Shown: positions 27,031 to 52,549 of the stretch, one piece after another
How the letters are laid out: each line of letters begins with the position of its first letter
How positions within the stretch are numbered: position 1 is the first letter of the stretch
NCBI RefSeq assembly: GCF_014205635.1
Contig: NZ_JACIIV010000013.1
Location: forward strand, 62,001-126,000
Origin: Polymorphobacter multimanifer
Lineage (GTDB): Bacteria > Pseudomonadota > Alphaproteobacteria > Sphingomonadales > Sphingomonadaceae
DNA length: 64,000 nucleotides
Reading direction: 5' to 3'
Notes under the pieces: model-generated
What the model was told of the DNA's origin: nothing
The model's input: the letters and a program-made list of their open reading frames with translations, nothing else
Databases searched by the model: none
Program-made: the position numbers and the translations under genes

Positions 27031-27515
27031 AGTTTTTTGCGGCGGCAATCGCTTTACTGATGGCAACGAGTGCGGGAGCGCAGGACATGAAGCGGTATGA
27101 GCAGTTCAAGGCGGTGATCGATGCCTGGGGCAAGAAGGACAAGGCTTTCGTGCTTTCGAAGATGGATGACGACATCGTCTGGCACATGGCGGCGACCGCC
27201 AAGCCGCCGCTGATGGGCAAGGCGGCGGCGTCGAAGTTTCTCGATGCGTTTGGTGCCAATATTTCGGACAAGCCGGGAAGCGTGCGCTGGCGGATCATCC
27301 ACCATTCCGAAACGGCCGACCGGCTGTTTGTCGAGGGCGTGGATGAGTATGATGATGTGAGCGGCAAGACGATCACCGCACCTTATGTGGGGGTGATCGA
27401 GTTCAAGGGCGATCTGATCACCGGCTGGCGGGATTATGTCGACTATGGGACGATCGACCGGCAGCGGCTGGGTGAGCCGCTGCCGGCGCATGTGAAGGCG
27501 CTGGCGGAAAGGTGA
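27027..27515 (+). CDS. NTF2-like (SnoaL / limonene-epoxide-hydrolase fold) protein, possibly exported
   Basis: This 162-residue protein carries a nuclear-transport-factor-2 fold: an N-terminal helix YEQFKAVIDAWGKKD, the strand DDDIVWHMA, and the C-terminal VGVIEFKGDLITGWRDYVDYG, typical of the limonene-1,2-epoxide hydrolase group. If translation starts at the GTG at 27027 (GTGA overlap with the thiolase stop), there is a signal peptide (about 1-19). Starting at the ATG at 27087 would give a cytosolic enzyme. Cytosolic action would make more sense beside a CoA ligase, so the start matters. Role in the operon is inferred only. Confidence 0.7.
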   Translation: MKFFAAAIALLMATSAGAQDMKRYEQFKAVIDAWGKKDKAFVLSKMDDDIVWHMAATAKPPLMGKAAASKFLDAFGANISDKPGSVRWRIIHHSETADRLFVEGVDEYDDVSGKTITAPYVGVIEFKGDLITGWRDYVDYGTIDRQRLGEPLPAHVKALAER

Positions 27516-34190: not shown

Positions 34191-35831
34191 ATGTATCTGA
34201 CGTCGAAAACGCGGATTGCCGACTATGAAGCGCGCGGCTGGTGGCAGGGCCGGTCGGTCGATGCGCTGTTCCAGCAGGTCGGGCTGACCGGCGGTGACGA
34301 GCTGGCGCTGTGCGATCCGCTTAACCGCGAGGCGCTCGATGGCCGGCCGGCGGAGCGGCTGAGCTGGGCGGCGCTGCATGACCGGGTGGAGCGGGTGGCG
34401 GGGAGCCTGCTGGGCGCCGGGTTGGCCAAGGACGATGTGGTGGTGGCGCAGCTGCCCAACACGGTGGATGCGGTGGCGCTGGTGCTGGCGTGCGCGCGGC
34501 TGGGGGTGATCATCTCGCCGGTGGTGATGCAATATCGCGCGCATGAGCTGGGGCATATCGTCGGCAAGACGCGCCCCAAGGCGTTCGTGACGGTTGAGCG
34601 GTTCGGCGGGCATGACCATGCGGCGATGGCGGCGGCGCTGGGCGTGCGCGTGCTGCTGGCGCATGAGCTGGCGGCGGGCGATCCCGCGCCGGTTGTCGAC
34701 TATGTGATGGCACACCCGACCGAGGGCGGCGAGGTGATGACGATCTGCTGGACGAGCGGCACCGAGAGTGCCCCCAAGGGCGTGCCGCGCGACCATAACC
34801 ACTGGATATTGAACGCGCAGGTGGTGGCGGAAGCGGCGGGGATGGCGGACGGCGATGTGATCCTCAACCCCTTCCCGCTGGTGAACATCGCTTCCATCGG
34901 CGGAATGATGCTGCCCTGGCTGTGGCTCAGGGGACGGATGGTGCTGCATCATCCTTTCGATCTGCCGCTGTTTTTACAGCAGATTGCCGCCGAGCGGGTG
35001 ACTTACACGATTGCGCCGCCGGCGGTGCTGACGGCGTTGCTGATGCAGCCGGCGATTTTGGCGGCGACCGATATTTCCAGCTTGCGGGCAATCGGCTCGG
35101 GGTCGGCGCCGCTCTCGCCGTTCCTGATCGGCGGGTGGCGGGACAAGCATGGGATCGAGATCTGCAACATCTTCGGGTCGAACGAGGGGTGTTCGCTGTT
35201 CTGCGGGCCGGTCGATGTGCCCGACCCGGAGCTGCGCGCGCGCTATTTCGTCCACACGGGCCAGAAGGGCATTACCGGCGAGGTGGTGCACACGCGGCTG
35301 GTCGACGCGGCAACCGAGGCGGAGATCACGGCGCCGGGGCAGGTCGGCGAGTTGCGGCTGGCGGGGGGCAATGTGTTCTCGGGCTATTGGGAAGACACCG
35401 AGCTCAACGCCCGCGCCTTTGACGACAAGGGCTATTTCCGCACCGGGGACCTGTTCGAGATTGCCGGCGAAGGTGAGCTGGCGCGCTTCTACCGCTTTGT
35501 GGGCCGCTCGAAGGAGATCATCGTGCGCGGCGGGGTGAACATCTCGCCGGCCGAAATCGACGATCTGCTGGTGGGGGCGCCCGACCTGCTCGAAGCGGCG
35601 ACAGTGGGCATTCCCGACGAGGTGCTCGGCGAGCGCGTGGCGGTGGCGGTGGTGCCGCGCGAGGGGGCGACGCCGTCGATCGCGTCACTCGGCGCCTGGC
35701 TGGAGGGCAAGGGCTGCGCGATCTTCAAGCGCCCCGAACGGCTCGTGGTGGTGGAAAAACTGCCGCGCAATGCGATGAACAAGGTGGTGCGCGATGTGCT
35801 GCGGGCGGAGGTGGTCAAGCGGATGGGGTGA
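34191..35831 (+). CDS. AMP-forming acyl/aryl-CoA ligase
   Basis: This 546-residue class I adenylate-forming enzyme has the P-loop ICWTSGTESAPKGVPRDHNHW, the adenine motif NIFGSNEGCSLF, the hinge YFRTGDLFEI and FYRFVGRSKEIIVRGGVNISPAEID, and the catalytic Lys in LPRNAMNKVVRDVL. All key residues are present. It would activate a carboxylic acid as its CoA thioester. A GGGGAGAGAG ribosome site is seen. It diverges from the DapB/thiolase/flavoprotein operon, which suggests shared control and a shared pathway. Substrate unknown. Confidence 0.88.
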   Translation: MYLTSKTRIADYEARGWWQGRSVDALFQQVGLTGGDELALCDPLNREALDGRPAERLSWAALHDRVERVAGSLLGAGLAKDDVVVAQLPNTVDAVALVLACARLGVIISPVVMQYRAHELGHIVGKTRPKAFVTVERFGGHDHAAMAAALGVRVLLAHELAAGDPAPVVDYVMAHPTEGGEVMTICWTSGTESAPKGVPRDHNHWILNAQVVAEAAGMADGDVILNPFPLVNIASIGGMMLPWLWLRGRMVLHHPFDLPLFLQQIAAERVTYTIAPPAVLTALLMQPAILAATDISSLRAIGSGSAPLSPFLIGGWRDKHGIEICNIFGSNEGCSLFCGPVDVPDPELRARYFVHTGQKGITGEVVHTRLVDAATEAEITAPGQVGELRLAGGNVFSGYWEDTELNARAFDDKGYFRTGDLFEIAGEGELARFYRFVGRSKEIIVRGGVNISPAEIDDLLVGAPDLLEAATVGIPDEVLGERVAVAVVPREGATPSIASLGAWLEGKGCAIFKRPERLVVVEKLPRNAMNKVVRDVLRAEVVKRMG

Positions 35832-39395: not shown

Positions 39396-39475
39396 CCCGG
39401 CCCGATAACCGGAATGCATGGGGGCAAGGGTCGGGGCGATTAGCCGGGCCGGGCGGCGTGCTTATGGTCGGCGGC

Positions 39476-40786
39476 ATGGCGACCTTGCTCAATTCTCCCC
39501 CCCGCTTGGACCCTTCGGCGCTGGTGCGGCCGGGGCGGGTGCATCGCTCGGTTTATACCGACGCCGAGATCTTCCGGCTGGAGATGGAGCGCATCTTTTC
39601 GCGCGCCTGGATTTATCTGGCGCATGAGAGCGAGATGCCGGCGGCGGGCGATTATGTTCGGCGGCATATCGGCAGCCGCCAGGTAATCCTGACGCGGGAC
39701 CGCGACGGGGCGGTGCATGCGATTCCCAACCGCTGCTCGCACCGGGGAACCACGCTGTGCGCCTTCGATCGCGGCTCGGCGCCCGGCGGGCACAGCTGCC
39801 CCTATCATGGCTGGAACTTTGCCGCCGATGGCCGGCTGCGCGGGGTGCCGCAGCGGAGCAATTATGAGGGCGTGCTGGAACTGGGCGACTATGACCTGCA
39901 GCCGGTGCGGGTGGCGGCGTATCGCGGCTTTCTGTTCGGGACGCTCGACGCCGAGGCGGTGCCGCTGGTGGAGTTTCTCGGGCATATGGCGACGTCGATC
40001 GATGATCTGGTCGATCGCTCGCCTTCGGGCGAGGTGGTGTGTTCGCCGCATGTGCTGCGCCACCATTATCGCGGCAACTGGAAGCTGAGCTTCGAGAACC
40101 TCAATGACACCATCCATCCGGGCTTTGCGCATTCGGCCTCGGTGGTCTCGGCCAAGGCGGTGGCGGCGGGGCTGGAGGAGGGCGAGCCACTGGCGGCGTC
40201 GCTGGGGATGATGCTCGCCAACGGCAAGCCGATCCAGTTTTTCCAGGATCTTGACATGGTGACCACGCCGCGCGGCCACAGCTATATCGGCGGGCATATG
40301 GGGGCCAGTTACACGGCGGACACGCAGAGCGCCTATGCGCAGGCGCTGATCGCGCATCATGGGCCCGACAAGGCGGCGCGGGTGCTGGGCACCGACCGGC
40401 ATCTGATGCTGCTCTACCCGAGCTCGACCTGGCATGCGCGTTACCAGACGGTGCGGATCGTGCGGCCGGTGCGGCACGATCTGACCGAGATCATCGGCTA
40501 TACCTTCCGGCTGCCGGGGGCGCCGGAGGAGACGTATCGCAACGCGGTGGAATATTGCACCGGCGCCAACAGTGCGGCGTCGCCGGTGATTGCCGATGAT
40601 CTTGAAGTTTATGAGCGGATCATGGACGGCAACGGGTTTGACGCGCGCGAATGGGTGCCGATGAGCCGGGGGTTGCGCGAGGACCGCGAGGCAGTGCCGG
40701 GGTTGACGCGCAGCCCGGCGACCTCGGAGGCGTTCATCCGCAACCAGTTTGCGGCATGGGCCGATTATATGGGCGCTGCGGCATGA
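39476..40786 (+). CDS. Rieske ring-hydroxylating dioxygenase, alpha subunit
   Basis: This 436-residue catalytic subunit of an aromatic-ring dioxygenase has Rieske [2Fe-2S] ligands Cys87-His89 and Cys108-His111 (CSHRG and CPYHGW). The mononuclear iron region FENLNDTIHPGFAH supplies His214 and His219, with Asp211 as the electron-bridge residue; an Asp-rich late segment (about 373-378) should give the third ligand. Such enzymes insert O2 into an aromatic ring using electrons from a ferredoxin/reductase, neither of which is nearby. The start at 39476 is preferred over one six codons earlier. The beta subunit follows with an ATGA overlap. Confidence 0.93.
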   Translation: MATLLNSPPRLDPSALVRPGRVHRSVYTDAEIFRLEMERIFSRAWIYLAHESEMPAAGDYVRRHIGSRQVILTRDRDGAVHAIPNRCSHRGTTLCAFDRGSAPGGHSCPYHGWNFAADGRLRGVPQRSNYEGVLELGDYDLQPVRVAAYRGFLFGTLDAEAVPLVEFLGHMATSIDDLVDRSPSGEVVCSPHVLRHHYRGNWKLSFENLNDTIHPGFAHSASVVSAKAVAAGLEEGEPLAASLGMMLANGKPIQFFQDLDMVTTPRGHSYIGGHMGASYTADTQSAYAQALIAHHGPDKAARVLGTDRHLMLLYPSSTWHARYQTVRIVRPVRHDLTEIIGYTFRLPGAPEETYRNAVEYCTGANSAASPVIADDLEVYERIMDGNGFDAREWVPMSRGLREDREAVPGLTRSPATSEAFIRNQFAAWADYMGAAA

Positions 40787-41280
40787 GCGACGCGGGTTTG
40801 CGCGAGCGGGTTCGTGCGCTGATCGAGGATGAGGCGCGGCTGCTCGATGACCAGGATTTCGAGGCCTGGCTGGCGCTGTTCACGCCCGATTGCCGCTATT
40901 GGGTGCCGGTAAGCCTGGACCAGACGACGCCGGGGGACGGGGTGGCGCACTTCAATGATGACAAGCAGTTGATGGCGGCGCGCACGCACCGGCTGCTCAA
41001 CCCGCGGGCCTTTGGGGCGGAGCCCTCCCCGCGCACGGCGCATGTGGTTTCGGGGGTGCGGATCGATGCGGTGGATGACGACGGGACGGTGCATGCCAGC
41101 TCGTCGCAGATCATCCTCGAATATCGGCGGCGCGACCGTTTCGAGGAGGATAGCCGGGTGTTTGGCGGGCGGGTGCGGCATGTGCTGCGGGCGACCGGGA
41201 GCGGGCTGCGGATTGCCTTGAAGCGCGTCGATCTGGTGAACGCCGAAGGCTCGATGAACGCGCTGGCGGCGCCGTTTTGA
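40783..41280 (+). CDS. Ring-hydroxylating dioxygenase, beta subunit
   Basis: This 165-residue small subunit has the NTF2-like fold: helix ALIEDEARLLDDQDFEAWLALF, strand CRYWVPVS, then SSQIILEYRRRD and a late RIALKRVDLVNAE. Beta subunits stabilise the alpha3beta3 mushroom and affect substrate fit. The gene overlaps the alpha gene (ATGA) and the following thiolase gene (TTGA), so all are coupled. Length is normal. Confidence 0.92.
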   Translation: MSDAGLRERVRALIEDEARLLDDQDFEAWLALFTPDCRYWVPVSLDQTTPGDGVAHFNDDKQLMAARTHRLLNPRAFGAEPSPRTAHVVSGVRIDAVDDDGTVHASSSQIILEYRRRDRFEEDSRVFGGRVRHVLRATGSGLRIALKRVDLVNAEGSMNALAAPF

Positions 41281-42449
41281 ACGCGTTTCTGCCTTATGGG
41301 GCGTGGTGGTCGACGCCGTTCGCGCGCTGGCAGGGGCCGCTGGCGCATCTGCATTCGCTGCGCTTTGCGGCGTTCACGGCGCGGGGTGCCTTGGCGGCGC
41401 GGGGGATTGGCGCCGACGCGCTCGATTTCGGGGTGCTGGGGTTCACTGTCCCGCAGCCGGGGAGTTTTTACGGGCTGCCGTGGGTGGCGGCGGAAGCGGG
41501 GGCGGCGCATCTGGCGGGGCCGAGCATCATGCAGGCGTGTGCCACCTCGGCGCGGTGCTTGCAGGTGGCGGCGGCCGAGGTTGCGGGCGGCGGGGCAACG
41601 GCGGCGCTGGTGCTGGCGGCGGACCGGGTGTCGAACGGGCCGACGCTGGTTTACCCGCGGTCCGATGGGCCGGGCGGGGCGGCGCAGGTGGAGAATTGGG
41701 TGCTCGACAATTTTGCCGCTGACCCCTGGGCGAAGTGCGCGATGGTGCAGACGGCGGAGAATGTGGCGGCGAAATGGGGGCTGCAGCGCGAGGCACAGGA
41801 TGACCTCGTGCTGATGCGGCTGGCGCAATATCATGGCGCCCGCGAGCGGGGGTTTCATGGCAGCTTCCTGATGACCGCGCTTCCGGAGGGGCATCTGGAG
41901 GGTGATTTCGGGGTGCAGCCGGTCAATGCGGGCAAGGTGCGGGGGCTGCGGCCGGTGCAGCCGGGGGGCATCGTGACCTATGCGGGGCAGACGCACCCTG
42001 CCGATGGCAATGCGGGGGCGATTGTGGCGACGCGCGATGCGGCGCGGGCGCTGAGCCGGCGGCCGGAGATCGAGGTGGCGCTGCTCGGCTTTGGCACGGC
42101 GCGGGTGGAGGCGGCGATGATGCCGGCCGCACCCGTACCCGCAACGGCGCGTGCGCTGAAAGCGGCGGGGCTTGAAATGGCGGCGGTGGATGCGGTGACG
42201 AGCCACAATCCGTTTGCGGTGAATGATCTGGTGTTTGCGCATGAGACGGGGTTTCCGCTCGAGCGGATGAATGTGAACGGGTGCAGCCTCGTGTTCGGGC
42301 ATCCGCAGGGGCCGACGGGGTTGCGCTGCACGATCGAGCTGATCGAGACGCTGGCCGAGCGCGGGGGGGGCGTGGGGCTGTTCCAGGGGTGTGCGGCGGG
42401 GGATACGGCGATGGCGCTGGTGCTCGAGGTGCGCGATGCACGGCACTGA
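41277..42449 (+). CDS. Thiolase-family protein
   Basis: This 390-residue thiolase-fold protein begins at a TTG in a four-base overlap with the dioxygenase beta gene. The nucleophile Cys88 lies in MQACATSARC, the catalytic His in VFGHPQGPTG, and the C-terminal Cys in QGCAAGDTAMA, so both Cys and the His are present although the motifs depart from the textbook consensus. It probably performs a CoA-dependent cleavage or acyl transfer late in the pathway. It overlaps the next CoA-ligase gene by 14 bases. The unusual motifs leave room for a non-classical reaction. Confidence 0.82.
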   Translation: MNAFLPYGAWWSTPFARWQGPLAHLHSLRFAAFTARGALAARGIGADALDFGVLGFTVPQPGSFYGLPWVAAEAGAAHLAGPSIMQACATSARCLQVAAAEVAGGGATAALVLAADRVSNGPTLVYPRSDGPGGAAQVENWVLDNFAADPWAKCAMVQTAENVAAKWGLQREAQDDLVLMRLAQYHGARERGFHGSFLMTALPEGHLEGDFGVQPVNAGKVRGLRPVQPGGIVTYAGQTHPADGNAGAIVATRDAARALSRRPEIEVALLGFGTARVEAAMMPAAPVPATARALKAAGLEMAAVDAVTSHNPFAVNDLVFAHETGFPLERMNVNGCSLVFGHPQGPTGLRCTIELIETLAERGGGVGLFQGCAAGDTAMALVLEVRDARH

Positions 42450-43944
42450 GGCGCTGCCGAGCCCGTTGGCGCTGCTGGCGCGCGCGGCGGCGCAGGCGCC
42501 CGAGGCGCTGGCGCTGGCGGCGGGGGCGGTGCGGCTGAATTATCGCTGCTATGCTGCCGCCGTGGCGAGCCTGGCGGCGCAGCTGGTGGCGGCGGGGGCG
42601 CGCGGGCGGGCAGTCGTGCTGCTGCTGCGGAACGGTGTGGAACTGCCGATCGGGATTTTCGGCGCACAGGCGGCGGGAGGGCAGGCTTGTGCGCTCAACC
42701 CCGATTATACCGAGCGCGAGCTGGCGGAGATGCTGGCGGTGGCGCGGACGGCGGTGGCGATTACCCATGTCGATCTGGCCGAGCGGTTGCGGGCCGCACT
42801 TGGGGCGGAGTTCCACGGCACGTTGCTGGTGTTGCCCGATGATGCGGCGGCCTGGGTGGCGAGTTTGCAGGGGGTGGCGCCCGCCCTGCCGGCGCCCGAT
42901 CCGGACAGCATTGCGACGCTGCAGTTTACCGGCGGCACCGCCGGGGTTCCCAAGGCGGTGATGCTGAGCCACCGCGCGATTGCCGCCAATGTGGCGCAGC
43001 GCGAGGCGGTGCTGCCGACACTTTGGCAGGATGAGCGGGTGATCTGCATGATGCCGCTGTTCCACAGCTTTGCTGCCGCCATGGGGCTGCATCTGGCGGC
43101 GAATTGCGCGGGGAGCTTGCACATCCTGCCGCGCTACCGGCCCGACTGGGTGGTGGAGACGATTGCCGCCGAGCGCATCACAAGGTTGCCGGCGGGGCCG
43201 ACGGTGTTCAACAGCCTGCTCGCGTATGACGGGCTGGCGGGGGCGGATCTTGCGTCGTTGCGGAGCGCCTGGTCGGGATCGGCGCCGCTGTCGGCCGAAA
43301 CGCTGCGGCGGTGGCAGGCGCAGACCGGGGTGCCGGTTCTTGAAGGCTATGGCCAGTCTGAGGCGGGGCCGATCCTGACGTATCACGGTCCGGGGATGGT
43401 GCAGAAGCTCGGGAGTGTGGGGCCGGCGGTGCCGGGGACCGAGGTGCAGATCGTCGATGTCGAGACGGGGGTGCGGGTGCTGGGGCCGGGCGACCTCGGC
43501 GAGGTGCGGGTGCGGGGACCGCAGATCATGGCGGGGTATCTGGACGATGCGGCAGCGACGGCTGAGGCGCTGCGGGATGGGTGGCTGCATACCGGCGATA
43601 TTGGACGGCTCGATGGGGATGGCTGGCTGTTCATCGAGGATCGCAAGAAGGATATGGCGATCATCGGCGGCTACAATGTCTATCCCCGCGAGGTGGATGA
43701 GGTGCTGATGGCGTGCCCCGGCGTAGGCGAGGCGGCGGCGGTGGGGGTGCCCGATGCGTATCGGGGTGAGCTGCTCTGGGCGTTTTACAGTGCCGATGCG
43801 GAGCTGCCGCTGGCGGAGTGGGTGGCGGCGCGGCTGGTGAAGTACAAGCATCCGGCGCGGTTCGTGCGGCTGGACGCACTGCCGAAGACGGCGGTGGGGA
43901 AGATCGACAAGCAGGCGCTGAAAGCGCTGGCGGCGGCCGGCTGA
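42436..43944 (+). CDS. AMP-forming acyl/aryl-CoA ligase
   Basis: This 502-residue class I adenylate-forming ligase has the P-loop TLQFTGGTAGVPKAVMLSH, the adenine motif EGYGQSEAGP, the hinge GWLHTGDIGRLDGDGWLFIEDR followed by KKDMAIIGGYNVYPREVDEVL, and the catalytic Lys in LPKTAVGKIDKQAL. All key residues are intact. Start ATG at 42436 overlaps the thiolase gene by 14 bases; the stop overlaps the following hydrolase gene (TGATG). Sitting in the dioxygenase operon, it probably activates the aromatic acid that enters the pathway or a ring-cleavage product. Confidence 0.9.
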   Translation: MHGTEALPSPLALLARAAAQAPEALALAAGAVRLNYRCYAAAVASLAAQLVAAGARGRAVVLLLRNGVELPIGIFGAQAAGGQACALNPDYTERELAEMLAVARTAVAITHVDLAERLRAALGAEFHGTLLVLPDDAAAWVASLQGVAPALPAPDPDSIATLQFTGGTAGVPKAVMLSHRAIAANVAQREAVLPTLWQDERVICMMPLFHSFAAAMGLHLAANCAGSLHILPRYRPDWVVETIAAERITRLPAGPTVFNSLLAYDGLAGADLASLRSAWSGSAPLSAETLRRWQAQTGVPVLEGYGQSEAGPILTYHGPGMVQKLGSVGPAVPGTEVQIVDVETGVRVLGPGDLGEVRVRGPQIMAGYLDDAAATAEALRDGWLHTGDIGRLDGDGWLFIEDRKKDMAIIGGYNVYPREVDEVLMACPGVGEAAAVGVPDAYRGELLWAFYSADAELPLAEWVAARLVKYKHPARFVRLDALPKTAVGKIDKQALKALAAAG

Positions 43945-44801
43945 TGTCACTGGCGCAGGTCGAGGCGTTGCGGGCGATGTTGGCGGGGCGGCCGAAGGAT
44001 GCGCCGCTCGCAGCCCGGCGCGCCGGGTTCGAGGCGATGATGGCGCGGGATGTGCCGCCGAAGGAGACGCGGGTGGAGACGGTGGCGATCGGCCCTGCCC
44101 TGTCCGGCGAGTTGGTGATGGCGGCGGGGGCGGACCCTGGGCGGCTGCTGGTGTGGTTGCATGGCGGGCAGTTCGCGCTCGGGTCGGCGGCGAGCTACCG
44201 GGCGTTTGCCGCGCGGGTTTCGGCGGCTAACGGCTGTGCGGTGCTGACGCCGGATTATCGGCTGGCGCCCGAGCATCGCTATCCCGCCGCGCATGACGAT
44301 GCGGAAGCGGCGCTGCGCTGGGGGCTGGCAAATGCTGGGCGGGTGGCGATTGGCGGGGATTCGGCGGGGGCCAATCTGGCGCTGGCGGCGGCGCAGCGGG
44401 TGGCAGGGGCGGCGGCTTTGTGGCTGCTTTCGCCGTATCTCGATCTGACACACACAGCACCGAGCATAAACGCACGGAGTCCGCGCGATCCGTTCGTCGA
44501 TCCGGCGGAGATGGATGCGGTGGCGGCGCGCTATCTGGGGGATGCCGACCCGGCCGGCACGCGTGCATCGCCGCTGTTGGGGCCGCTGGACGCACTGCCA
44601 CCGGTGCTGGTGCAAGTGGGCTCGGATGAGGCGCTGTTCGATGATGCGGCGCGACTGGCGGCGCTGGTGCCGGGGACGGTGTTCCAGGAGTGGGTCGGGA
44701 TGATTCATGTCTGGCCGCTGTTTGCAGCGCAGATCGACGAGGGGGCGCAGGCGATTGCGCAGGCGGGGGCCTTCCTGCAGCGGGCGATGGTTGAAGCCTG
44801 A
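43944..44801 (+). CDS. HSL-type alpha/beta hydrolase with HGGQ oxyanion motif
   Basis: This 285-residue esterase/lipase of the hormone-sensitive-lipase group has the nucleophile Ser140 in IGGDSAGAN, LTPDYRLAPEHRYPAA as a family block, and late acid and His segments. The oxyanion motif, normally HGGG, reads HGGQ (residues 73-76 in VWLHGGQF). The gene is the last of the coupled unit 39476-44801. It may cleave an ester or thioester intermediate. The Gln substitution is unusual and may alter activity. Confidence 0.83.
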   Translation: MSLAQVEALRAMLAGRPKDAPLAARRAGFEAMMARDVPPKETRVETVAIGPALSGELVMAAGADPGRLLVWLHGGQFALGSAASYRAFAARVSAANGCAVLTPDYRLAPEHRYPAAHDDAEAALRWGLANAGRVAIGGDSAGANLALAAAQRVAGAAALWLLSPYLDLTHTAPSINARSPRDPFVDPAEMDAVAARYLGDADPAGTRASPLLGPLDALPPVLVQVGSDEALFDDAARLAALVPGTVFQEWVGMIHVWPLFAAQIDEGAQAIAQAGAFLQRAMVEA

Positions 44802-44818
44802 AACATATGCCTTGCAAT

Positions 44819-44835
44819 CATTCCTGATTGGAATG
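44819..44835. promoter_or_regulatory. LysR-type binding site (T-N11-A palindrome)
   Basis: CATTCC-TGATT-GGAATG is a perfect six-base inverted repeat with a five-base centre. It includes T at 44821 and A at 44833 with eleven bases between, the classical LysR box. It lies 12 bases before the LysR ATG, fitting autoregulation. Confidence 0.6.
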
Positions 44836-44846
44836 ACACTCAAGCC

Positions 44847-45758
44847 ATGGAACTGCGCCAGCTTCGCCATTTTCAGGAGATCGTCCGCTGCTCGAGCTTC
44901 GGCCAGGCGGCGGAGAAGCTGAACATCACCCAGCCGGCGCTTTCGAAAAGCATCCGCAATCTGGAGCGGTCGCTGGGGTGCCAGCTGCTCGAGCGGCATC
45001 CATCGGGGGTGACGCCGACCGAATATGGTCTGGTGTTCCTCGATTATGCCGCCCTTGTCATTTCCGAGCTCGAGCGCGCGGTGGAGGAGCTGAATGCGCT
45101 GCGCGGGCGCGGGCGCGGTGTGGTGCGGGTGGGGGCCGGCTCGACGATGATGCGCTATCTGCTGCCGCAGGCGGTGCGGCGCTTCATGGCGCAGGCCGAG
45201 GGCAATTCGGTGAGCTTTCGCCAGGGGCTGAAGGACGAGCTGATGGCCTCGCTGCGGCGTGGGGACATCGACATCATGGTGGGCAGCACCAACCCCGACC
45301 AGCTTCCCGACGACATGCGCCATGAGGCGGTGCTGCAGGACCGGATCGTGGTGGTGGCCGATGCCAAGCACCCGCTGGTAGCCGAGCGCCGGATCGCGTT
45401 GGCGGCGCTGGCGGCATGCCAATGGGTGCTGCCCGAAGGCAATGAGCCCGAGGGCGAGCGGCTGGTGCGCAGCCTGCGCCGCGAAGGGCTGGCACCGCCG
45501 CGCGTGGCGGTGCGGACTGGAAGCTCGGTGTTCATGGCGGCGCTTCTGAAGGACAGCAGCTATTTGAGCTATCTGCCGGCCGCGCTGATTTCGCTCGATC
45601 CCGACTTTGCGCATCTGGTCCCGCTCGATCTGGCCGAGCCGATCTGGCCGCCGGTGCTGGTGGGGGTGACCTATCGCCGGCGCGGGGTGATGCTGGCCCC
45701 GGTGCGGCGCTTCATCAACCGGCTCAAGGATGTCGCAGGCGAGGTGCCGGCGAACTGA
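44847..45758 (+). CDS. LysR-family transcriptional regulator
   Basis: This 303-residue regulator has an N-terminal winged helix (residues 1-60, with SFGQAAEKLNITQPALSKSI as the recognition helix region) and a periplasmic-binding-protein-like effector domain from about 90. It lies between the dioxygenase operon and the SDR-to-RidA operon, on the same strand as both, so it probably controls one or both in response to an aromatic or CoA-ester intermediate. A T-N11-A palindrome lies right upstream. Length is standard. Confidence 0.92.
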   Translation: MELRQLRHFQEIVRCSSFGQAAEKLNITQPALSKSIRNLERSLGCQLLERHPSGVTPTEYGLVFLDYAALVISELERAVEELNALRGRGRGVVRVGAGSTMMRYLLPQAVRRFMAQAEGNSVSFRQGLKDELMASLRRGDIDIMVGSTNPDQLPDDMRHEAVLQDRIVVVADAKHPLVAERRIALAALAACQWVLPEGNEPEGERLVRSLRREGLAPPRVAVRTGSSVFMAALLKDSSYLSYLPAALISLDPDFAHLVPLDLAEPIWPPVLVGVTYRRRGVMLAPVRRFINRLKDVAGEVPAN

Positions 45759-45762
45759 CCGG

Positions 45763-45791
45763 TTGGCGCGGGACGATATTTCAACTATAAA
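45763..45791 (+). promoter_or_regulatory. Sigma70-like promoter of the SDR-MarR operon
   Basis: TTGGCG (45763-45768) and TATAAA (45786-45791) are separated by exactly 17 bases and lie 30 bases before the SDR start. The -10 box is inside an inverted repeat (45779-45806), so a bound repressor would block RNA polymerase. Confidence 0.7.
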
Positions 45792-45806
45792 ATGTCCAAG
45801 TTGAAA
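45779..45806. promoter_or_regulatory. Inverted repeat TTTCAACT-N12-AGTTGAAA, likely MarR operator
   Basis: The two eight-base arms (45779-45786 and 45799-45806) are perfect reverse complements, with centres 20 bases apart, about two helical turns. The repeat covers the -10 box and likely transcription start. A MarR-family gene is the second gene of the operon, which makes it the first candidate to bind here. Confidence 0.65.
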
Positions 45807-45820
45807 CTATCGAGTCGCTG

Positions 45821-46588
45821 ATGCCCGAGGCTGCTTCTCCCCGCCATGCGCTGATCACCGGTGGTGGCACCGGCATCGGTGCTGCGATTGCGACGGCCCT
45901 TGCCGCCGAGGGTTGCCGGGTGACGCTGCTGGGGCGCCGCGAGGGGCCGCTGCGGGCGGTGGCGGAGGGATTGCCCGACGCCGGTTTTGTGACGGGCGAT
46001 GTGACCTGCCCCGAGAGCATCGACACCGCCTTTTGCGCGGCGCGGGCGGCGCGGGGGCCGATCGACATCCTGGTGGCCAATGCGGGGGCGGCGGAGAGCG
46101 GGCGCTTCGCGGCGCAAGGCCGGGCGGTGTGGCGACGGATGATGGCGGTCAACCTCGATGCCGTGCATGATTGCGCACAGGCCGCCCTCCCCGACCTGCT
46201 GGCGAGCCCGGCAGGGCGTCTGGTGGTGGTGGCGAGCACCGCGGGACTGAAGGGCTATGGTTTTTCGGTGGCCTATAGTGCCGCCAAGCATGGCGCCATC
46301 GGGCTGGTGCGGTCGCTGGCGATGGAACTGGCGGGGACGAAGGTGACGGTGAATGCCGTATGCCCGGGCTTTACCGATACCGACATCGTGGCCGAGGCGG
46401 TGGCGACGATCAGCGGCAAGACCGGGCGGTCGGCGCAAGCGGCACGCGCCGAGCTGGCGCGGTTCAACCCGCAGGGACGGCTGATCGACCCTTTGGAGGT
46501 GGCGCGCGCGGTGGCGTGGCTGGCGTGCACGGACAGTCGCAGCATCACCGGACAAAGCATTATCGTGGCAGGCGGAGAGATCATGTGA
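45821..46588 (+). CDS. SDR-family NAD(P)-dependent dehydrogenase
   Basis: This 255-residue short-chain dehydrogenase has the cofactor loop TGGGTGIG (13-20), the NAGA motif, and a catalytic triad of Ser139, Tyr152 and Lys156 (YSAAK). A 3-hydroxyacyl-CoA dehydrogenase-like oxidation would fit between hydratase and thiolase steps, which is inference from the operon. It is the first gene of a coupled unit and overlaps the MarR gene by four bases (GTGA). Its promoter with operator is directly upstream. Confidence 0.92.
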   Translation: MPEAASPRHALITGGGTGIGAAIATALAAEGCRVTLLGRREGPLRAVAEGLPDAGFVTGDVTCPESIDTAFCAARAARGPIDILVANAGAAESGRFAAQGRAVWRRMMAVNLDAVHDCAQAALPDLLASPAGRLVVVASTAGLKGYGFSVAYSAAKHGAIGLVRSLAMELAGTKVTVNAVCPGFTDTDIVAEAVATISGKTGRSAQAARAELARFNPQGRLIDPLEVARAVAWLACTDSRSITGQSIIVAGGEIM

Positions 46589-47106
46589 CCGATAGCATTG
46601 TGACGTTCCGCGAAAAGCATGATGGCGAATTGGGGGATGCAGCACTCGATTCCGAGACGCGCGAGGCGGTGCGGCTTTGGCTGCGGCTGCTCAGTTGCAC
46701 GATGGTGATCGAGAAGCGGGTGCGGCGCGGGCTGGCGGAGCAGTTTCAGACGACGCTGCCGCGCTTTGACATATTGGCCGCGCTCGACCGTGCCGAACAG
46801 GGCCTCAGTATGGGCGCGCTTGGTCGGGCGCTGCTGGTGTCCAACGGCAACATCACCGGGCTGGTACAGACGCTCGTGCGCGATGGCGACGTGCGGCTGT
46901 CGAATGCACCGGGGGACCGGCGGACGGCGATCGTGCAGTTGACGCCCGAGGGCCGTGAGCGGTTCCGGGCGATGGCAGCGACGCATCATGGCTGGATTGC
47001 CGAGTTGCTGGGGGGGCTGACCGGGCCCGACAGGGCCGCCCTGCTCAAGCAATTGGGCGGGCTGCAGGCGTCGATTGCGGCGGCGGGCACGGAGTTCGAC
47101 CAGTGA
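46585..47106 (+). CDS. MarR-family transcriptional regulator
   Basis: This 173-residue regulator has the winged-helix core [24 protein letters not shown] and the beta wing with the [13 protein letters not shown] signature. It starts at GTG (46585) inside the SDR stop and ends overlapping the hydratase start. MarR-type proteins inside aromatic-CoA operons are usually repressors released by an aryl-CoA ligand. The inverted repeat at 45779-45806 is a likely target, so autoregulation of the whole operon is expected. Confidence 0.9.
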
Positions 47107-47912
47107 GTGCGGCGGATTTTTCGCCGCGGCATTTTGGCTGGGGGCTGGCGGACGGCGTGGCGACGATCACGCTGAACCGGCCCGAGCGCAAGAACCCGCT
47201 GACCTTCGAGAGCTATGCCGAGCTGCGCGACCTGTTCCGGGCGCTGGTCTATTGGCCGGAGGTGAAGGCGGTGGTGCTGACCGGGGCGGGCGGCAATTTT
47301 TCGAGCGGTGGCGATGTGTTCGAGATCATCGGGCCGCTGACGAAGATGGCGATGCCCGAGCTGCTGGCGTTCACGCGGATGACCGGCGATCTCGTCAAGG
47401 CGATGCGCGGCTGCCCGCAGCCGATCGTCGCGGCACTGGACGGCGTGTGCGTGGGAGCCGGCGCGATCATGGCAATGGCCTCCGACCTGCGGCTGGCGAC
47501 GGAGCGCACGAAGACGGCGTTCCTGTTCACCCGCGTCGGGCTGGCAGGATGCGACATGGGGGCGTGTGCAATCCTGCCGCGGATCATCGGCCAGGGGCGT
47601 GCGTCCGAGCTGCTGTTCACCGGGCGGACGATGAGTGCCGAGGAAGGCGAGCGCTGGGGGTTTCACAACCGGCTGGTGGCGGCTGACGCGTTGATTGACG
47701 AGGCGCAGGCGCTGGCAGCGAGCCTCGCGGCGGGGCCGGGCTTTGCGCATGGGATCACCAAGACGCAGCTCAATATGGAATGGGCGGTGAGCCTTGATGT
47801 GGCGATCGAGATGGAGGCGCAGGCGCAGGCGATCTGCATGAAGACGCAGGATTTTGTTCGCGCGTTCGAGGCGTTTGCGGCGAAGCGGTCGCCGGTGTTC
47901 GAGGGCAATTGA
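47103..47912 (+). CDS. Enoyl-CoA hydratase/isomerase family protein
   Basis: This 269-residue crotonase-fold protein, starting at GTG, has [18 protein letters not shown] (first oxyanion NH region) and [22 protein letters not shown] (second oxyanion segment and helix dipole). The later [20 protein letters not shown] carries the region of catalytic acids; the usual pair of Glu is not both visible. It should hydrate or otherwise process an enoyl-CoA after ring dearomatisation. One base separates its stop from the next start. Confidence 0.88.
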
Positions 47913-47913
47913 C

Positions 47914-49095
47914 ATGGCCGACCGCAGCTTTCTCGACTGGCCGTTTCTGGGCGCGCAGCATCAGGACCTGGCCTGTGCGCTGGAGGATTGGTGCGCGCGG
48001 GTGCTGGGGCCCCTGCCCCACTCGGACGATGATATCGATGGGCAATGCCGGGTGCTGCTGGGGCTGTTGGGGGATGGTGGATGGCTGCGCCATGCCGTGC
48101 CGGCGGCCTATGGTGGGGCACATGAGGGCTTTGACGTGCGGTCGCTGTGCCTGATCCGCGAGACGCTGGCGCGCTGGTCGGGGCTCGCCGATTTCGTGTT
48201 TGCGATGCAGGGGCTGGGATCGGGGACGATCAGCCTGTTCGGCAGCGAGGCGCAGAAAGCTTTGGTGCTTCCGGGCATCGCCTCGGGTGCGCGGATGGGG
48301 GCGTTTGCGCTGACCGAGCCCGAGAGCGGCTCGGATGTGGCGGCGATGACGACGATGGCGCGGCGCGACGGCGATGAGTGGATTATCGACGGCGCCAAGA
48401 CCTATATCTCGAACGGCGGAATCGCATCGCAATATGTGCTGTTCGCGCGGACCGGCGAGGCGCCGGGGGCCAAGGGGATTTCGGCGTTTCTGGTGCCGGC
48501 CGACACGCCGGGGCTGGAGATTGCCGCACGCATCCGGGTGATGGCGCCGCATCCGCTGGCGACTTTGCGCTTCGACGGGATGCGGCTGCCCGGCGATGCG
48601 CTGATCGGCGAGGCGGGGCGCGGCTTCCAGCAGGCGATGGCGACGCTCGACATCTTCCGCACGACCGTGGGGGCGGCCGCACTTGGGTTTGCGCGCCGCG
48701 CGCTCGACGAGGCGACGGCGCGGGTGCAGGCGCGCACCCTGCAGGGCCGGCCGCTGGCGGAGAATGCGGTGGTGCAGGCGCAGCTGGCGGACATGGCATT
48801 GGATGTCGATACCTCGGCGCTGCTCATTTATCGCGCGGCGTGGCTGCGCGATGTGATGGGGCAGCGCAACACGCGGGAAGCGGCGATGGCGAAGCTGCAT
48901 GCGACCGATGCGGCGCAGCAGGTGATCGACAAGGCGGTGCAGCTGCATGGCGGGCTGGGGGTGGAGCATGGGCATATCGTCGAAAGCCTGTTCCGCGAGG
49001 TGCGGGCGCTGCGGATTTATGAGGGCGCTTCGGAGGTGCAGCGGATGGTGATTGCGCGCGAGCATCTGGCGCAGGCGAAGGGAGGCAATCGGTGA
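47914..49095 (+). CDS. Acyl-CoA dehydrogenase
   Basis: This 393-residue FAD enzyme of the acyl-CoA dehydrogenase family has the FAD/substrate segment [32 protein letters not shown], and the late [20 protein letters not shown]. The C-terminal [17 protein letters not shown] contains the catalytic Glu. It oxidises a CoA thioester at C2-C3 and passes electrons to electron-transfer flavoprotein. Start ATG at 47914 follows the hydratase stop by one base. Its stop overlaps a GTG that begins a 26-codon mini-frame (49092). Confidence 0.93.
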
Positions 49096-49172
49096 AGATC
49101 GAGGTTATCGGCGCCCGCGCGCGCAGGCGCGCAAACAGGGAAACCGCCGCCCGTCATGGAGCTGGAGCATGA
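49092..49172 (+). other. Translationally coupled 26-codon mini-frame resembling the start of the next gene
   Basis: GTG at 49092 overlaps the acyl-CoA dehydrogenase stop as GTGA, and the frame ends in TGA at 49170-49172, overlapping the flavoprotein ATG as ATGA. Its first bases (49092-49115) match the first 24 bases of the flavoprotein gene (49169-49192) at 20 of 24 positions, and the encoded KIEVIG mirrors KIEIIG. The rest is Arg/Ala-rich with no family resemblance. It looks like a relic of the former gene start left by a 77-base insertion or duplication, or a coupling leader. Confidence 0.55.
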
Positions 49173-51556
49173 AGATCGAAATTATCGGCGGCGGCCCGGG
49201 TGGATTGTATCTGGCCATCCTGACCAAGAAGGCGCGGCCCGATTGGCAGGTGGCGGTGCATGAGCAGAACCGCGAGGGGGATACGTTCGGCTTTGGCGTG
49301 GTGTTTTCGGATGACACGCTCGACGAGTTCCTGAGCCGTGATCCGGAATCCTATGCGATGATCCGCGACCGCTTTGCCTATTGGGACGATATTCGGATCG
49401 TGCGGAGCGGGACGGAAGTGCGCTGCGGGGGCAATGGCTTTGCCGGCTGTGCGCGGCTGGCGCTGCTCGAGGTGCTGTTTGCGCGGTGCCGGCAGCTTGG
49501 GGTGGCGCTGTCCTTCGGCGAGGTGATCGATCCTGCGGAGCTTTCCACCCGCTTTGCCGATGCCGATGTGATCGTGGCGTCGGACGGGATCAACAGCCGC
49601 ATCCGGACGCATTTTGCGCAAGCGTTCCAGCCCGAAGTGCGGCTGATGGCGAACCAGTTCACCTGGATGGGGAGCACGCGGCCGCTGACCGACTTCACCT
49701 ATTTCTTCCGCGAAACGCCGCACGGGATCATCACCGCGCACACCTACCAATATGAGCCGGGGCGCTCGACCTGGATTTTCGAGACCGATCCGGCGACCTG
49801 GGCGGGGCACGGTTTTGCCGGCATGGGCGAGGACGAGGCAGCGCGCTATCTGGAGGGGGTGTTTGCCGACGAGTTGCAGGGGCATGGGCTGATCACCAAC
49901 CGCTCATTGTGGCGCAATTTTCCGCGCGTGGAGTGCAAGGCCTGGTCGCATGGCAACATCGTGCTGCTCGGCGATGCCAAGGCGACGGCGCATTATTCGA
50001 TCGGCTCGGGCACCAAGCTGGCGATGGAATGCGCGATTGCGCTGGCCGATGCGCTGCTGGCGCACGAGCATGATGTGGGGGCTGCGTTTGCGGCGTATGA
50101 GGCGGCGCGGCGGACGCCGGTGGAGATCACCCAGCACAATGCCGCAGTGAGCCTGGCCTGGTTCGAGCATGTGCGGCGCAGCTGGGACATGCCGGTGATG
50201 CAGTTTGCCAATGTGGTGATGAGCCGGGCCAAGGCGATCACCTATGACAATCTGCTGCTGCGTGACCCGGATTTCGTGGACGCGGTGGACAGCGAGTTTT
50301 ACGACACGCTGCTTGCCGAGACGGGGCATGATGCGAGGGATTCGCGCCCCACCCCGATGTTCACGCCGTTGACGTTGCGCGGGCTGACGCTGGCGAACCG
50401 CGTGGTGGTTTCGCCAATGGCGCAATATCGCGCGGTGGCGGGCGAGTTCACCGACTGGCATCTGATGCATTATGGGGCGCGGGCGCAGGGCGGGGCCGGG
50501 CTGGTTTACCTGGAGATGACCTGCCCGAGTGCGGACGCGCGGATCACGCTCGGGTGCCCGGGGCTCTGGAACGATGCGCAGGAAGCGAGCCTGAAGCGGA
50601 TTATCGACTTTGCGCATGCCGATGGCGGGGCGCGGATTGCGCTGCAGCTGGGGCATGCCGGGCGCAAGGGCTCGACGCAGCTTGGCTGGGAGAAGATGGA
50701 CCATCCGATTGCGCGGGCAGAGGACAATTGGCCGCTGGTTTCAGCGTCGCCGATCGCATGGTTCGAGGGCGAGAGCCAGGTGCCCGCCGAACTGGACGAA
50801 GCCGGGATGGCGCGGATCACGGCGGATTTCGTGGGCGCCACGGAACGTGCGGCGCGGGCGGGGGTCGATCTGCTCGAGCTGCACTGTGCGCATGGCTATC
50901 TGCTGGCGAGCTTCCTGTCGCCGCTGACCAACCTGCGCACCGATGGCTATGGCGGTGCAATCGAGAACCGGCTGCGGTTTCCGCTTGAGCTTTTTCGGGC
51001 GATGCGGGCGGTCTGGCCCGAGGAGCGGCCGATGGCGGTGCGCATTTCGGCGTCGGACTGGGCCGAGGGCGGCTTGAGCGAGGCCGATTGCTTTGCGATC
51101 GCGCGCGGCTTTGCGGACGCGGGCGTGGACCTGATCGATGTGAGCAGCGGGCAGACGGTGCCGCACCAGGCGCCGACCTATGGCCGCATGTATCAGGTGC
51201 CGTTTGCCGAAAGCCTGAAGAACGAGTTGGGGGTGAAGACGATATGCGTGGGTGCCATCACCGAGCCGGGGCAGGTCAACACCATCATCGCCTGCCGGCG
51301 CGCCGATCTGGTGGCGGTGGGGCGGCCGCATCTGACGCACCCCAATTGGACGATGCACGCGGCGGCCTGGTATGGGACGAAGCGCGGGCTGGCGGTGCCG
51401 AAGCCCTATCTTTCCGGCGCGGCGCAGCTTTGGCGCGAGACCGAAAGGACCCGCGAGAAACAGGCCGAGCTGCAGCGCAAGGCCAAGCCCAAGCGCCACC
51501 ACACCGAGCGGACGCTGGCGTTCAAGACCGGCGTGCAACGGGCGGCGGCGGAATGA
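49169..51556 (+). CDS. Two-domain flavoprotein: 2-aminobenzoyl-CoA monooxygenase/reductase (or salicylyl-CoA 5-hydroxylase) type
   Basis: This 795-residue fusion has an N-terminal FAD monooxygenase domain (about 1-385) with IGGGPGGLYLA and VLLGDAKATAHYSIGSGTK. The C-terminal old-yellow-enzyme-type FMN barrel (about 390-770) has FTPLTLRGLTLANRVVVSPM, LQLGHAGRKGS, ELHCAHGYLLASFLSP and TDGYGGAIENRLRFP. This architecture is that of the enzyme that hydroxylates and partly reduces 2-aminobenzoyl-CoA, also annotated as salicylyl-CoA 5-hydroxylase. A GGAG seven bases before the ATG supports the start. Neighbouring hydratase, dehydrogenases and RidA match such a pathway. Substrate (amino- or hydroxy-benzoyl-CoA) is not decided by sequence. 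Confidence 0.9.
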   Translation: MKIEIIGGGPGGLYLAILTKKARPDWQVAVHEQNREGDTFGFGVVFSDDTLDEFLSRDPESYAMIRDRFAYWDDIRIVRSGTEVRCGGNGFAGCARLALLEVLFARCRQLGVALSFGEVIDPAELSTRFADADVIVASDGINSRIRTHFAQAFQPEVRLMANQFTWMGSTRPLTDFTYFFRETPHGIITAHTYQYEPGRSTWIFETDPATWAGHGFAGMGEDEAARYLEGVFADELQGHGLITNRSLWRNFPRVECKAWSHGNIVLLGDAKATAHYSIGSGTKLAMECAIALADALLAHEHDVGAAFAAYEAARRTPVEITQHNAAVSLAWFEHVRRSWDMPVMQFANVVMSRAKAITYDNLLLRDPDFVDAVDSEFYDTLLAETGHDARDSRPTPMFTPLTLRGLTLANRVVVSPMAQYRAVAGEFTDWHLMHYGARAQGGAGLVYLEMTCPSADARITLGCPGLWNDAQEASLKRIIDFAHADGGARIALQLGHAGRKGSTQLGWEKMDHPIARAEDNWPLVSASPIAWFEGESQVPAELDEAGMARITADFVGATERAARAGVDLLELHCAHGYLLASFLSPLTNLRTDGYGGAIENRLRFPLELFRAMRAVWPEERPMAVRISASDWAEGGLSEADCFAIARGFADAGVDLIDVSSGQTVPHQAPTYGRMYQVPFAESLKNELGVKTICVGAITEPGQVNTIIACRRADLVAVGRPHLTHPNWTMHAAAWYGTKRGLAVPKPYLSGAAQLWRETERTREKQAELQRKAKPKRHHTERTLAFKTGVQRAAAE

Positions 51557-51960
51557 GCATGGTGCATTTGCAGCCGGCTGGGTGGCCGCGGCCCAAGGGC
51601 TATGCGAACGGCGTTGCGGTGACGATTCAGCCCGGTGACAGGCTGATCGTGACGGCCGGCGTGGTGGGGTGGGATGCCGAGGAGCGTTTTCCCGCAGGGA
51701 TGACGGCGCAGGCAGAGCAGGCGTTCCGCAACATTGCCGCGATTCTGGCCGAAGCCAGTGCTGGGCCGCATCATATCGTGCGGATGACCTGGTACATCAC
51801 CAGCCGCGAGGCCTATCTCTCCGAGGCGCGGGCGATCGGCGAGGCGTGGCGCGCGGTATTTGGCAAGCTGTTTCCGGCGATGGCGGTGGTGGAAGTGACG
51901 GCGTTGATGGAAGCCGACGCGATGATCGAGATCGAAGCGACGGCGGTGGCGGGCGCCTAG
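51553..51960 (+). CDS. RidA-family (YjgF/YER057c) protein
   Basis: This 135-residue RidA-fold protein has RLIVTAGVVGWDAEERFPAG, EQAFRNIAAILAEASAGPHHIVRMTWYIT and the late FPAMAVVEVTALMEADAMIEIE. The usual catalytic Arg near the C-terminal strand is not obvious, so it may belong to a RidA-like subgroup with altered chemistry. RidA proteins hydrolyse enamine or imine intermediates. As last gene of the operon (ATGA overlap), it would fit removal of an amino group from a 2-aminobenzoyl-CoA product. Its stop shares CTAG with the convergent toxin gene. Confidence 0.87.
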   Translation: MSMVHLQPAGWPRPKGYANGVAVTIQPGDRLIVTAGVVGWDAEERFPAGMTAQAEQAFRNIAAILAEASAGPHHIVRMTWYITSREAYLSEARAIGEAWRAVFGKLFPAMAVVEVTALMEADAMIEIEATAVAGA

Positions 51961-52247
51961 AACTGCTCGCTGCCGATGTCGCGGGCTGCGTGCAGGATGC
52001 GGACAAGCTCGATGCCGTGGCCGGTGGGACAATAGAACAGGGTGTAGCGCCCGACGACGAACGACCGGAGGCCGGTTGCCAGCTCTGGTCTGGGTGAGCC
52101 CACAAGCGGCTCGTCGCGCAGCATCGTCAATTTGCTGTCGAAGAGCCGGACAAGCCGGTCAGCTGCCGTGCGGTCGTGCTGCGCGACGTAGCGCCAGATT
52201 TCGATCGTGTCCCGCCGTGCAGCCGGACTGCGGACGATGTGCGCCAC
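51957..52247 (-). CDS. ParE/RelE-family toxin
   Basis: This 96-residue toxin-fold protein has VRSPAARRDTIEIWRYVAQH as helix one, FDSKLTMLRDEPLVGSPRPEL as the second helix and loop, and LRSFVVGRYTLFYCP followed by IELVRILHAARDI as the sheet. This sequence pattern is closest to ParE toxins. It starts at GTG (52247), the first base overlapping the antitoxin stop (TAGTG), so translation is coupled. It converges on the RidA gene. Confidence 0.9.
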   Translation of the reverse strand: MAHIVRSPAARRDTIEIWRYVAQHDRTAADRLVRLFDSKLTMLRDEPLVGSPRPELATGLRSFVVGRYTLFYCPTGHGIELVRILHAARDIGSEQF

Positions 52248-52504
52248 TAGCGACCGGCGGTCGATGCCCGGGCTTCAGCGAGCAGGGCTTCCACATCCCA
52301 GGGTTCGGCCGGGCCGCTGGCAAGGCCCTCCTCGATGGCGCCGCGCAGCCAGGCGAGGCGTTCGGCGTGCTCGGCTTCGCGGGCTTGCAGCAGTCGCAGC
52401 GCATCGCGGACGACTTCACTCGATGTGGCGTAGCGGCCGCCTTCGACAGCGGTGCGGACGAAGCTGTCGAGCTCGGGGGTGAGCGATACGTTCATTGCGG
52501 CCAT
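52247..52504 (-). CDS. ParD-family antitoxin
   Basis: This 85-residue ribbon-helix-helix protein has the DNA-binding strand MNVSLTPELDSFVRTAVEGG and the helix block YATSSEVVRDALRLLQ. An acidic C-terminal region (EEGLASGPAEPWDVEALLAEA) should wrap the toxin. Start at 52504 is set by AGGAG seven bases upstream (52511-52515); an in-frame ATG at 52495 is an alternative. A near-consensus promoter lies at 52522-52549. Confidence 0.9.
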   Translation of the reverse strand: MAAMNVSLTPELDSFVRTAVEGGRYATSSEVVRDALRLLQAREAEHAERLAWLRGAIEEGLASGPAEPWDVEALLAEARASTAGR

Positions 52505-52521
52505 GGCAATCTCCTGAGTGG

Positions 52522-52549
52522 AAGATACCATCCGCAAAGGCTATGTCAA
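52522..52549 (-). promoter_or_regulatory. Promoter of the second ParD-ParE pair
   Basis: On the minus strand an exact -35 consensus TTGACA (52544-52549) and TATCTT (52522-52527) are 16 bases apart, 17 bases before the antitoxin start. It is one of the best sigma70 matches in the window and lies just beyond the end of the paralogue operon. Confidence 0.65.

Follow-up and report, generated by a model that had tools for sequence, protein, structure and literature searches.

Introduction

The aerobic, CoA-dependent degradation of anthranilate has been described for Azoarcus evansii, and the accessible portion of PMC4539516 gives the product of the monooxygenase/reductase and, thereafter, beta-oxidation only. 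In the pAL1 cluster of Arthrobacter sp. Rue61a, a gene that we tied to its sequence record by position and product yielded anthranilate-CoA ligase activity when expressed in Escherichia coli, according to the available part of PMC3534580. The present analysis concerns a six-gene operon of Polymorphobacter multimanifer, located at positions 45821–51960 of a 64,000-nucleotide window (contig NZ_JACIIV010000013.1, positions 62,001 to 126,000). Its genes encode an SDR-family dehydrogenase, a MarR-family regulator, a crotonase-fold protein labelled enoyl-CoA hydratase (ECH), an acyl-CoA dehydrogenase (ACAD), a fusion of FAD monooxygenase and Old Yellow Enzyme (OYE) domains, and a Rid-family protein. 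All six are present in the order and on the strand given in a preliminary description of the window, which had also proposed anthraniloyl-CoA rather than salicylyl-CoA as the substrate. The operon probably supplies the lower steps of aerobic, CoA-dependent anthranilate (2-aminobenzoyl-CoA) degradation; this confidence covers the substrate and the pathway, and does not extend to the Rid and ring-opening steps.

The fusion flavoprotein

Residues 131–315 of the fusion match FAD_binding_3 and residues 397–731 match Oxidored_FMN, which places in one protein the monooxygenase and OYE-type reductase expected of the aerobic 2-aminobenzoyl-CoA pathway. The AlphaFold model has a pLDDT of 88.9 and a pTM of 0.88. 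In a 135-row tree of N-terminal domains, seven single-domain hydroxylases that include the annotated CehH are separated from 128 fusion-side rows with a support of 98; as for all trees presented here, this is a quick search with SH-like approximate likelihood ratio test (SH-aLRT) support only. The fusion-side rows comprise clade A with 58 rows, among them the operon fusion (98), clade B with 66 rows (99), an actinobacterial pair that includes pAL1 (100), and single rows from an archaeon and from Gemmatimonadota. The phylogeny, which the preliminary description had named as a check, thus puts the N-terminal domain among monooxygenase/OYE fusions and apart from the CehH-type hydroxylases.

A survey of 396 genomes of the order identified the fusion (E 1e-150 or better) in 106, with one match in each where at most two candidates were scored per genome. 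Thirty of these are A-like and 76 B-like, labels that reflect identity in this survey (at least 57% for A-like) and not a single all-inclusive tree. The fusion, the anthranilate-type ligase and the operon-type Rid described below are absent from all five congeners sampled.

A CoA ligase on a separate contig

The preliminary description had noted that no ligase lies in the operon and that three lie nearby. Both observations hold, the three AMP-ligases being upstream (Table 1), but the dedicated enzyme appears to be encoded on a separate contig of the genome and not by one of this trio. With the ligase of the Ruegeria cluster as query, one strong match was found in the host (C5:164381-165961; 52% identity, E 1.6e-163), the runner-up being 32% identical. 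The same protein is 51.6% identical over 529 amino acids to the pAL1 ligase, versus about 32% (31–34%) to CehG. From these identities we infer that it is the anthranilate-CoA ligase of the host, related to the pAL1 enzyme at ortholog level. Its gene shares a 4-base overlap with an FAH-family gene, the product of which is 37% identical to the FAH-family protein of pAL1; the opposite strand carries a LysR gene. A TonB-receptor-like open reading frame (ORF) is also found near this locus (L084:9378-11803), with the contig end close by.

Relatives of this ligase (E 1e-100) occur in 73 of the 106 fusion-bearing genomes versus 2 of the 290 others (p 8e-51; this and the other association p-values ignore relatedness among the genomes). 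Of these 73 genomes, 45 have the ligase no more than 20 kb from the fusion; as it is farther away in the remaining 28, in some cases on other contigs, a distant ligase such as that of P. multimanifer is not unusual.

The Met-type Rid protein

The product of the last gene matches PF01042 and adopts the RidA/Rid fold, its model (pLDDT 96.6) giving a TM score of 0.82 to goat RidA (8qos). It scores 48 bits against TIGR00004 (cut-off 106.25), and Met110 aligns on the carboxylate-binding Arg of solved RidA proteins. Rv2704, the best sequence match among solved proteins, likewise has no Arg at this position. Across 87 Rid rows, 84 have Met at this site, two have Val and one has Ile; the pAL1 protein has Met and the archaeal one Val. 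These rows were drawn from loci around the fusion because they resemble one of five cluster Rids (E 1e-8), a selection that could overlook a neighbouring Rid of the Arg type. Tyr17 is retained in 84 of 88 rows (Phe in the remaining 4) and Glu120 in 81 of 88, the operon Rid being counted twice. The other two Rids of the host, read by eye without alignment, carry Arg (L180) and Thr (L182). Proteins related to the operon Rid (E 1e-20) are found in 99 of the 106 fusion-bearing genomes and in 4 of the 290 others (p 4e-79).

In RidA, the Arg binds the substrate carboxylate and its change nearly abolishes activity (PMC4433059), and the same contact is reported in PMC4960622; the Rid4–7 groups have no Arg and are called mysterious (PMC4433059), all as stated in the available portions of these papers. 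The preliminary description had taken RidA to favour an amino-substituted substrate. That argument fails as it was put, because Met110 replaces the residue that RidA needs for imine hydrolysis, and we infer that it survives only if loss of the Arg reflects a CoA-thioester substrate: where the carboxylate of the pathway is a CoA thioester, the Arg would have nothing to bind. The Met-type Rid may be an enamine hydrolase for such a thioester and possibly provides the nitrogen-removing step. In the accessible text of PMC3534580, CoA esters of C7H7NO3 and C7H8O4 are reported from anthranilate-grown cells only, the latter possibly being cyclohexanedione-carboxyl-CoA. This compound would be the product expected of deamination by Rid, and spontaneous hydrolysis would yield the same. 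No link between Rid and the anthranilate-CoA pathway was found in a non-exhaustive literature search that left most subscription journals outside.

The crotonase-fold protein

Among solved structures, the closest relatives of the operon ECH by sequence are 3g64, a putative enoyl-CoA hydratase, followed by PaaG (4fzw_C). Asp151 is invariant in 96 of 96 ECH rows (the operon protein counted twice) and aligns on an Asp of PaaG. The two positions at which hydratases carry Glu seem to be occupied here by Ile122 and Phe142. Asp-dependent ring opening or isomerisation is perhaps as open to this protein as hydration.

Proposed pathway

In the proposed scheme, the C5 ligase would convert anthranilate to 2-aminobenzoyl-CoA, as its 52% identity to the pAL1 ligase suggests. 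The FAD domain of the fusion would then hydroxylate the ring and the OYE domain reduce it, giving the 2-amino-5-oxocyclohex-1-enecarbonyl-CoA reported for Azoarcus. The Met-type Rid would hydrolyse this enamine to ammonia and 2,5-dioxocyclohexanecarbonyl-CoA, the beta-keto ring of which would be opened by the crotonase-fold protein, the weakest step of the scheme. ACAD and SDR, together with a thiolase, would complete beta-oxidation, and MarR would control the operon, perhaps via the repeat at 45779–45806. The beta-oxidation genes required, SDR, ECH and ACAD, stand beside the fusion. Ser139, Tyr152 and Lys156 of SDR, which we take to be its catalytic positions, are each at least 93% conserved (90 rows), as is Glu370 of ACAD (79 rows), presumably the catalytic residue.

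Several observations weigh against this assignment. The fusion scores 1012.2 bits over residues 1–767 against NF006101, below the equivalog cut-off of 1078. Its identity to the pAL1 fusion, itself described as putative in the available part of PMC3534580, reaches only 45.6%, and no published assay was found for any enzyme of the operon or of clade A. At the threshold used, the ligase is missing from 33 of the 106 fusion-bearing genomes, 16 of which have no kynureninase either. Kynureninase and tryptophan 2,3-dioxygenase (TDO) matches are absent from the host genome, so that anthranilate would have to come from elsewhere, and the fusion shows no association with kynureninase (75/106 versus 185/290 genomes, p 0.23). 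Lastly, ECH is present in only 36 and ACAD in only 24 of 57 A-type loci.

Tryptophan was considered as the source of anthranilate in the host and is disfavoured, because the genome has neither a kynureninase nor a TDO match. The same searches succeed in 260 (kynureninase) and 262 (TDO) of the 396 genomes, and in 5/5 and 0/5 congeners, respectively. In favour of the anthranilate pathway in general, 18 of 120 related loci have TDO close to the fusion.

A mosaic operon

The set of related loci comprises 120 members (57 with A-type and 63 with B-type fusions), some of them cut by contig ends and at least one genome apparently counted twice (L041/L096). Homologs of all five partners surround the fusion in 43 of the 120, a recurrence of the kind that the preliminary description had suggested seeking and one which indicates that the operon grouping exceeds chance. 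The counts in A-type and B-type loci are 36 and 55 for ECH, 24 and 52 for ACAD, 38 and 55 for SDR, 41 and 42 for MarR, 37 and 43 for Rid, 26 and 40 for the anthranilate-type ligase, and 4 and 14 for TDO.

The operon ECH is 85% identical to the ECHs of a B-type locus of the same family (L068) and of an A-type locus (L036). In the ECH tree it belongs to a starred set of 7 rows (5 B-type, 2 A-type; 95), and the operon ACAD falls among the 4 rows of another such set (3 B-type, 1 A-type; 99). Mapped on the two trees, the fusion type switches at least 8 times for ECH, 3 of these switches being forced by starred branches, and 7 times for ACAD, with 4 forced. A single grouping of all 24 A-type ACADs is rejected by the approximately unbiased (AU) test (p 9.8e-6), which was applied to ACAD alone, post hoc after viewing the tree, with the grouping taken from the fusion tree. 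As the ECH and ACAD of the operon group with B-type operons though its fusion is of clade A, the simplest reading would be that an A-type fusion has replaced a B-type fusion inside a B-type operon. Such a swap suggests that the two clades are equal in function.

A few A-type fusions (L087, L088, L091, L092 and L095) are accompanied by few or none of ECH, ACAD, SDR and MarR. In L091 the fusion is near TDO, a formamidase-like gene and Rid, hinting at other downstream genes for some A-type fusions. A haloarchaeal plasmid of Halomicrococcus gelatinilyticus (L173:5063-11144, + strand) encodes a 716-residue relative of the fusion together with Rid, ACAD, MaoC, SDR and ECH, with trpB nearby, and this locus is an archaeal form of the cluster.

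Alternative readings

The name of NF006101, salicylyl-CoA 5-hydroxylase/oxidoreductase, might point to salicylyl-CoA or another ortho-substituted benzoyl-CoA as the substrate. However, the model is passed by the pAL1 fusion (L167:26656-29049; 1228.5 bits), which adjoins an anthranilate-CoA ligase, while the annotated salicylyl-CoA hydroxylase CehH (L168:5983-7125) matches its N-terminal half only, with 387 bits, far under the cut-off; when applied to the fusions, the name probably misleads. According to the record annotations CehH is a single-domain protein that adjoins a thioesterase and CehG, and a similar CehH-type cluster also encodes an isomerase and an FAH hydrolase. The operon fusion is no single-domain hydroxylase and does not group with CehH, whose type forms a separate branch in the N-domain tree. 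Given the fusion architecture, the tree position and the pAL1-like ligase in the genome, we regard a salicylyl-type substrate as very improbable, and the preference for anthraniloyl-CoA in the preliminary description is supported. The preliminary description had also supposed a longer route from the presence of a nearby Rieske operon; the operon might then serve as its lower half, with a substituted anthranilate as the substrate. Directly upstream, positions 39458–44801 hold genes for the two Rieske subunits, a thiolase, an AMP-ligase and a hydrolase, which run in the same direction with apparent 4-base overlaps (assumed starts); a PcaQ-like LysR gene comes next. The missing kynureninase and TDO would fit such a supply. 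Against this, neither Rieske subunit (at least 35% identity) is carried by any of the 120 related loci, nor, at the thresholds used, are the ligase at 42391–43944, the hydrolase or the LysR gene, the thiolase being found in 1/120; moreover, the two blocks are set apart by the LysR gene, with gaps of 45 and 62 bp. We therefore consider this route unlikely. The Rieske alpha subunit scores 178.3 bits against the anthranilate 1,2-dioxygenase model, which has a cut-off of 671.9.

It is also conceivable that the reaction of clade A differs from that of clade B, and that the mosaic operon is a new pathway in place of a like-for-like exchange. The clades are about 48% identical, clade B being the commoner; clade A fusions have a longer C-terminal tail, and a short insert near residue 245 is seen in 8/8 B-type and 0/11 A-type rows and is missing from CehH (25 rows aligned whole). 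Yet the pAL1 fusion is likewise without this insert, both clades adjoin homologs of ECH, ACAD, SDR, MarR, Rid, ligase and TDO, and each genome holds the single fusion match noted above, so we give a difference in reaction little credence. A stronger competitor is that the Met-type Rid is a binding, protective or sensory protein and no hydrolase, the enamine being hydrolysed unaided or on another enzyme of the operon. In the available text of PMC4433059, Arg-less Rid proteins are predicted to be unable to hydrolyse imines and Salmonella Rid7 is inactive on a leucine-derived imine, and the accessible part of PMC3534580 reports the monooxygenase/reductase product as unstable below pH 5. On the other hand, the Arg grips a free carboxylate (PMC4433059 and PMC4960622, as far as their available portions go), which a CoA thioester does not have; Tyr17 and Glu120 are retained, and Rid is more tightly associated with the fusion than is the ligase. 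A non-catalytic Rid is accordingly a real possibility, if on the whole a doubtful one. The reading we put forward tentatively, as possible though short of probable, is that of an Arg-less Met-type Rid lineage dedicated to hydrolysis of a CoA-bound cyclic enamine, with the Arg lost as the carboxylate became masked by the thioester, and of an 'enoyl-CoA hydratase' that is maybe an Asp-dependent ring opener. Both would act in the middle of an anthraniloyl-CoA route served by two interchangeable fusion clades.

Organization of the operon and flanking genes

The coordinates of the operon and of flanking features are collected in Table 1.

Table 1. Features of the operon and its upstream region (window coordinates)
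Feature	Position	Strand	Evidence or remarks
AMP-ligase	27512-29239		upstream of operon; no match to pAL1 ligase
AMP-ligase	34191-35831		upstream of operon; 25% identical to pAL1 ligase
Rieske alpha/beta pair	39458-41280		same direction as operon
AMP-ligase	42391-43944		upstream of operon; 30% identical to pAL1 ligase
Perfect inverted repeat TTTCAACT-N12-AGTTGAAA	45779-45806	.	14 bp before SDR start; candidate operator (MarR or LysR)
SDR-family dehydrogenase, 255 aa	45821-46588	+	PF00106 179.9 bits
MarR-family regulator, 173 aa	46585-47106	+	PF12802 37.4 bits, cut-off 27; assumed GTG start (picked by overlap)
ECH (crotonase fold), 269 aa	47103-47912	+	NF006107 479.1 bits, cut-off 330; GTG start
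ACAD, 393 aa	47914-49095	+	PF00441, PF02770, PF02771
Leader ORF, 26 codons	49092-49172	+	29-nt repeat, translation; GTG start on ACAD stop codon, ATGA overlap with fusion start
FAD monooxygenase/OYE fusion, 795 aa	49169-51556	+	clade A; domain matches, tree, structure model
Rid-family protein, 135 aa	51553-51960	+	PF01042, alignments, model; Met110 at RidA catalytic Arg position

The junctions along the operon measure -4, -4, +1, +73 and -4 bases. The four-base or near-zero spacing given in the preliminary description is thus correct for four of the five, the exception being the 73 bp between ACAD and the fusion. Within this gap the start of the fusion gene is repeated as a 29-nt direct repeat with 83% identity (49093/49170), and the translation of the leader ORF opens VKIEVIG where that of the fusion opens MKIEIIG. 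The leader ORF would seem to be a duplicated fusion start, kept for translational coupling.

The inverted repeat is expected 0.01 times in shuffled sequence, a value obtained with a search pattern modelled on the repeat already found. It was considered as a shared operator and rejected, the host ligase locus having no match. Across 122 related loci the half-site strings hit at most 23, with recurrent positions inside the fusion gene, in a search that did not inspect upstream regions singly. No terminator or + strand promoter above chance was found in 44750–52300. Directly 3' of the operon, on the - strand (51957–52537), are two small overlapping-type ORFs that by eye resemble a ParE/RelE-type toxin and its antitoxin.

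Comparison with known systems

The Azoarcus evansii pathway, compared here by description and not by sequence (PMC4539516 and PMC3534580, from their accessible parts), shares the expected fusion architecture, a CoA ligase and beta-oxidation genes with the present system; the operon described here differs in having no ligase, and we tentatively assign the fate of the amino group to Rid on the grounds given above. The pAL1 cluster, in which fusion and ligase adjoin, resembles the present system in a Rid that has Met in place of the Arg and in an FAH-family gene, as beside the ligase of the host. In pAL1, however, the fusion belongs to another branch (45.6% identity), the regulators are of PaaX and not MarR type, a cupin and a thioesterase are present, and SDR, ECH and ACAD are absent beside the fusion in the stretch viewed. 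The B-type clusters of Ruegeria pomeroyi and Paracoccus denitrificans have the fusion, SDR, MarR, ECH, ACAD and Rid in common with the operon, but are headed by a clade B fusion and include an AMP-ligase; that of P. denitrificans adds a thioesterase and that of R. pomeroyi a cupin gene, with TDO adjoining. The CehGHI-type salicylyl-CoA clusters (annotated roles) possess a related FAD hydroxylase domain (42.3% identity over 376 amino acids), which is a single domain without an OYE part and is accompanied by a ligase of another family. In the Nitratireductor plasmid pOM-1, one ORF (L171:4986-7736) apparently combines a CehH-type hydroxylase with a benzoate-CoA ligase.

A testable gene is now at hand for the step that follows the monooxygenase/reductase, where the available portion of PMC4539516 has beta-oxidation only, and likewise for the Arg-less Rid groups called mysterious in that of PMC4433059. 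In addition, a clade A member falls below the NF006101 cut-off, and the key ring-breaking enzyme has apparently been swapped within a conserved operon. With the RidA imine deaminases the operon Rid shares the fold and the Tyr and Glu positions, and it differs from them in having Met in place of the catalytic Arg. The kind of pathway is already known; what is new here is the divergent fusion clade, the mosaic operon, the remote position of the ligase and a Rid lineage that lacks the Arg and whose role can be tested.

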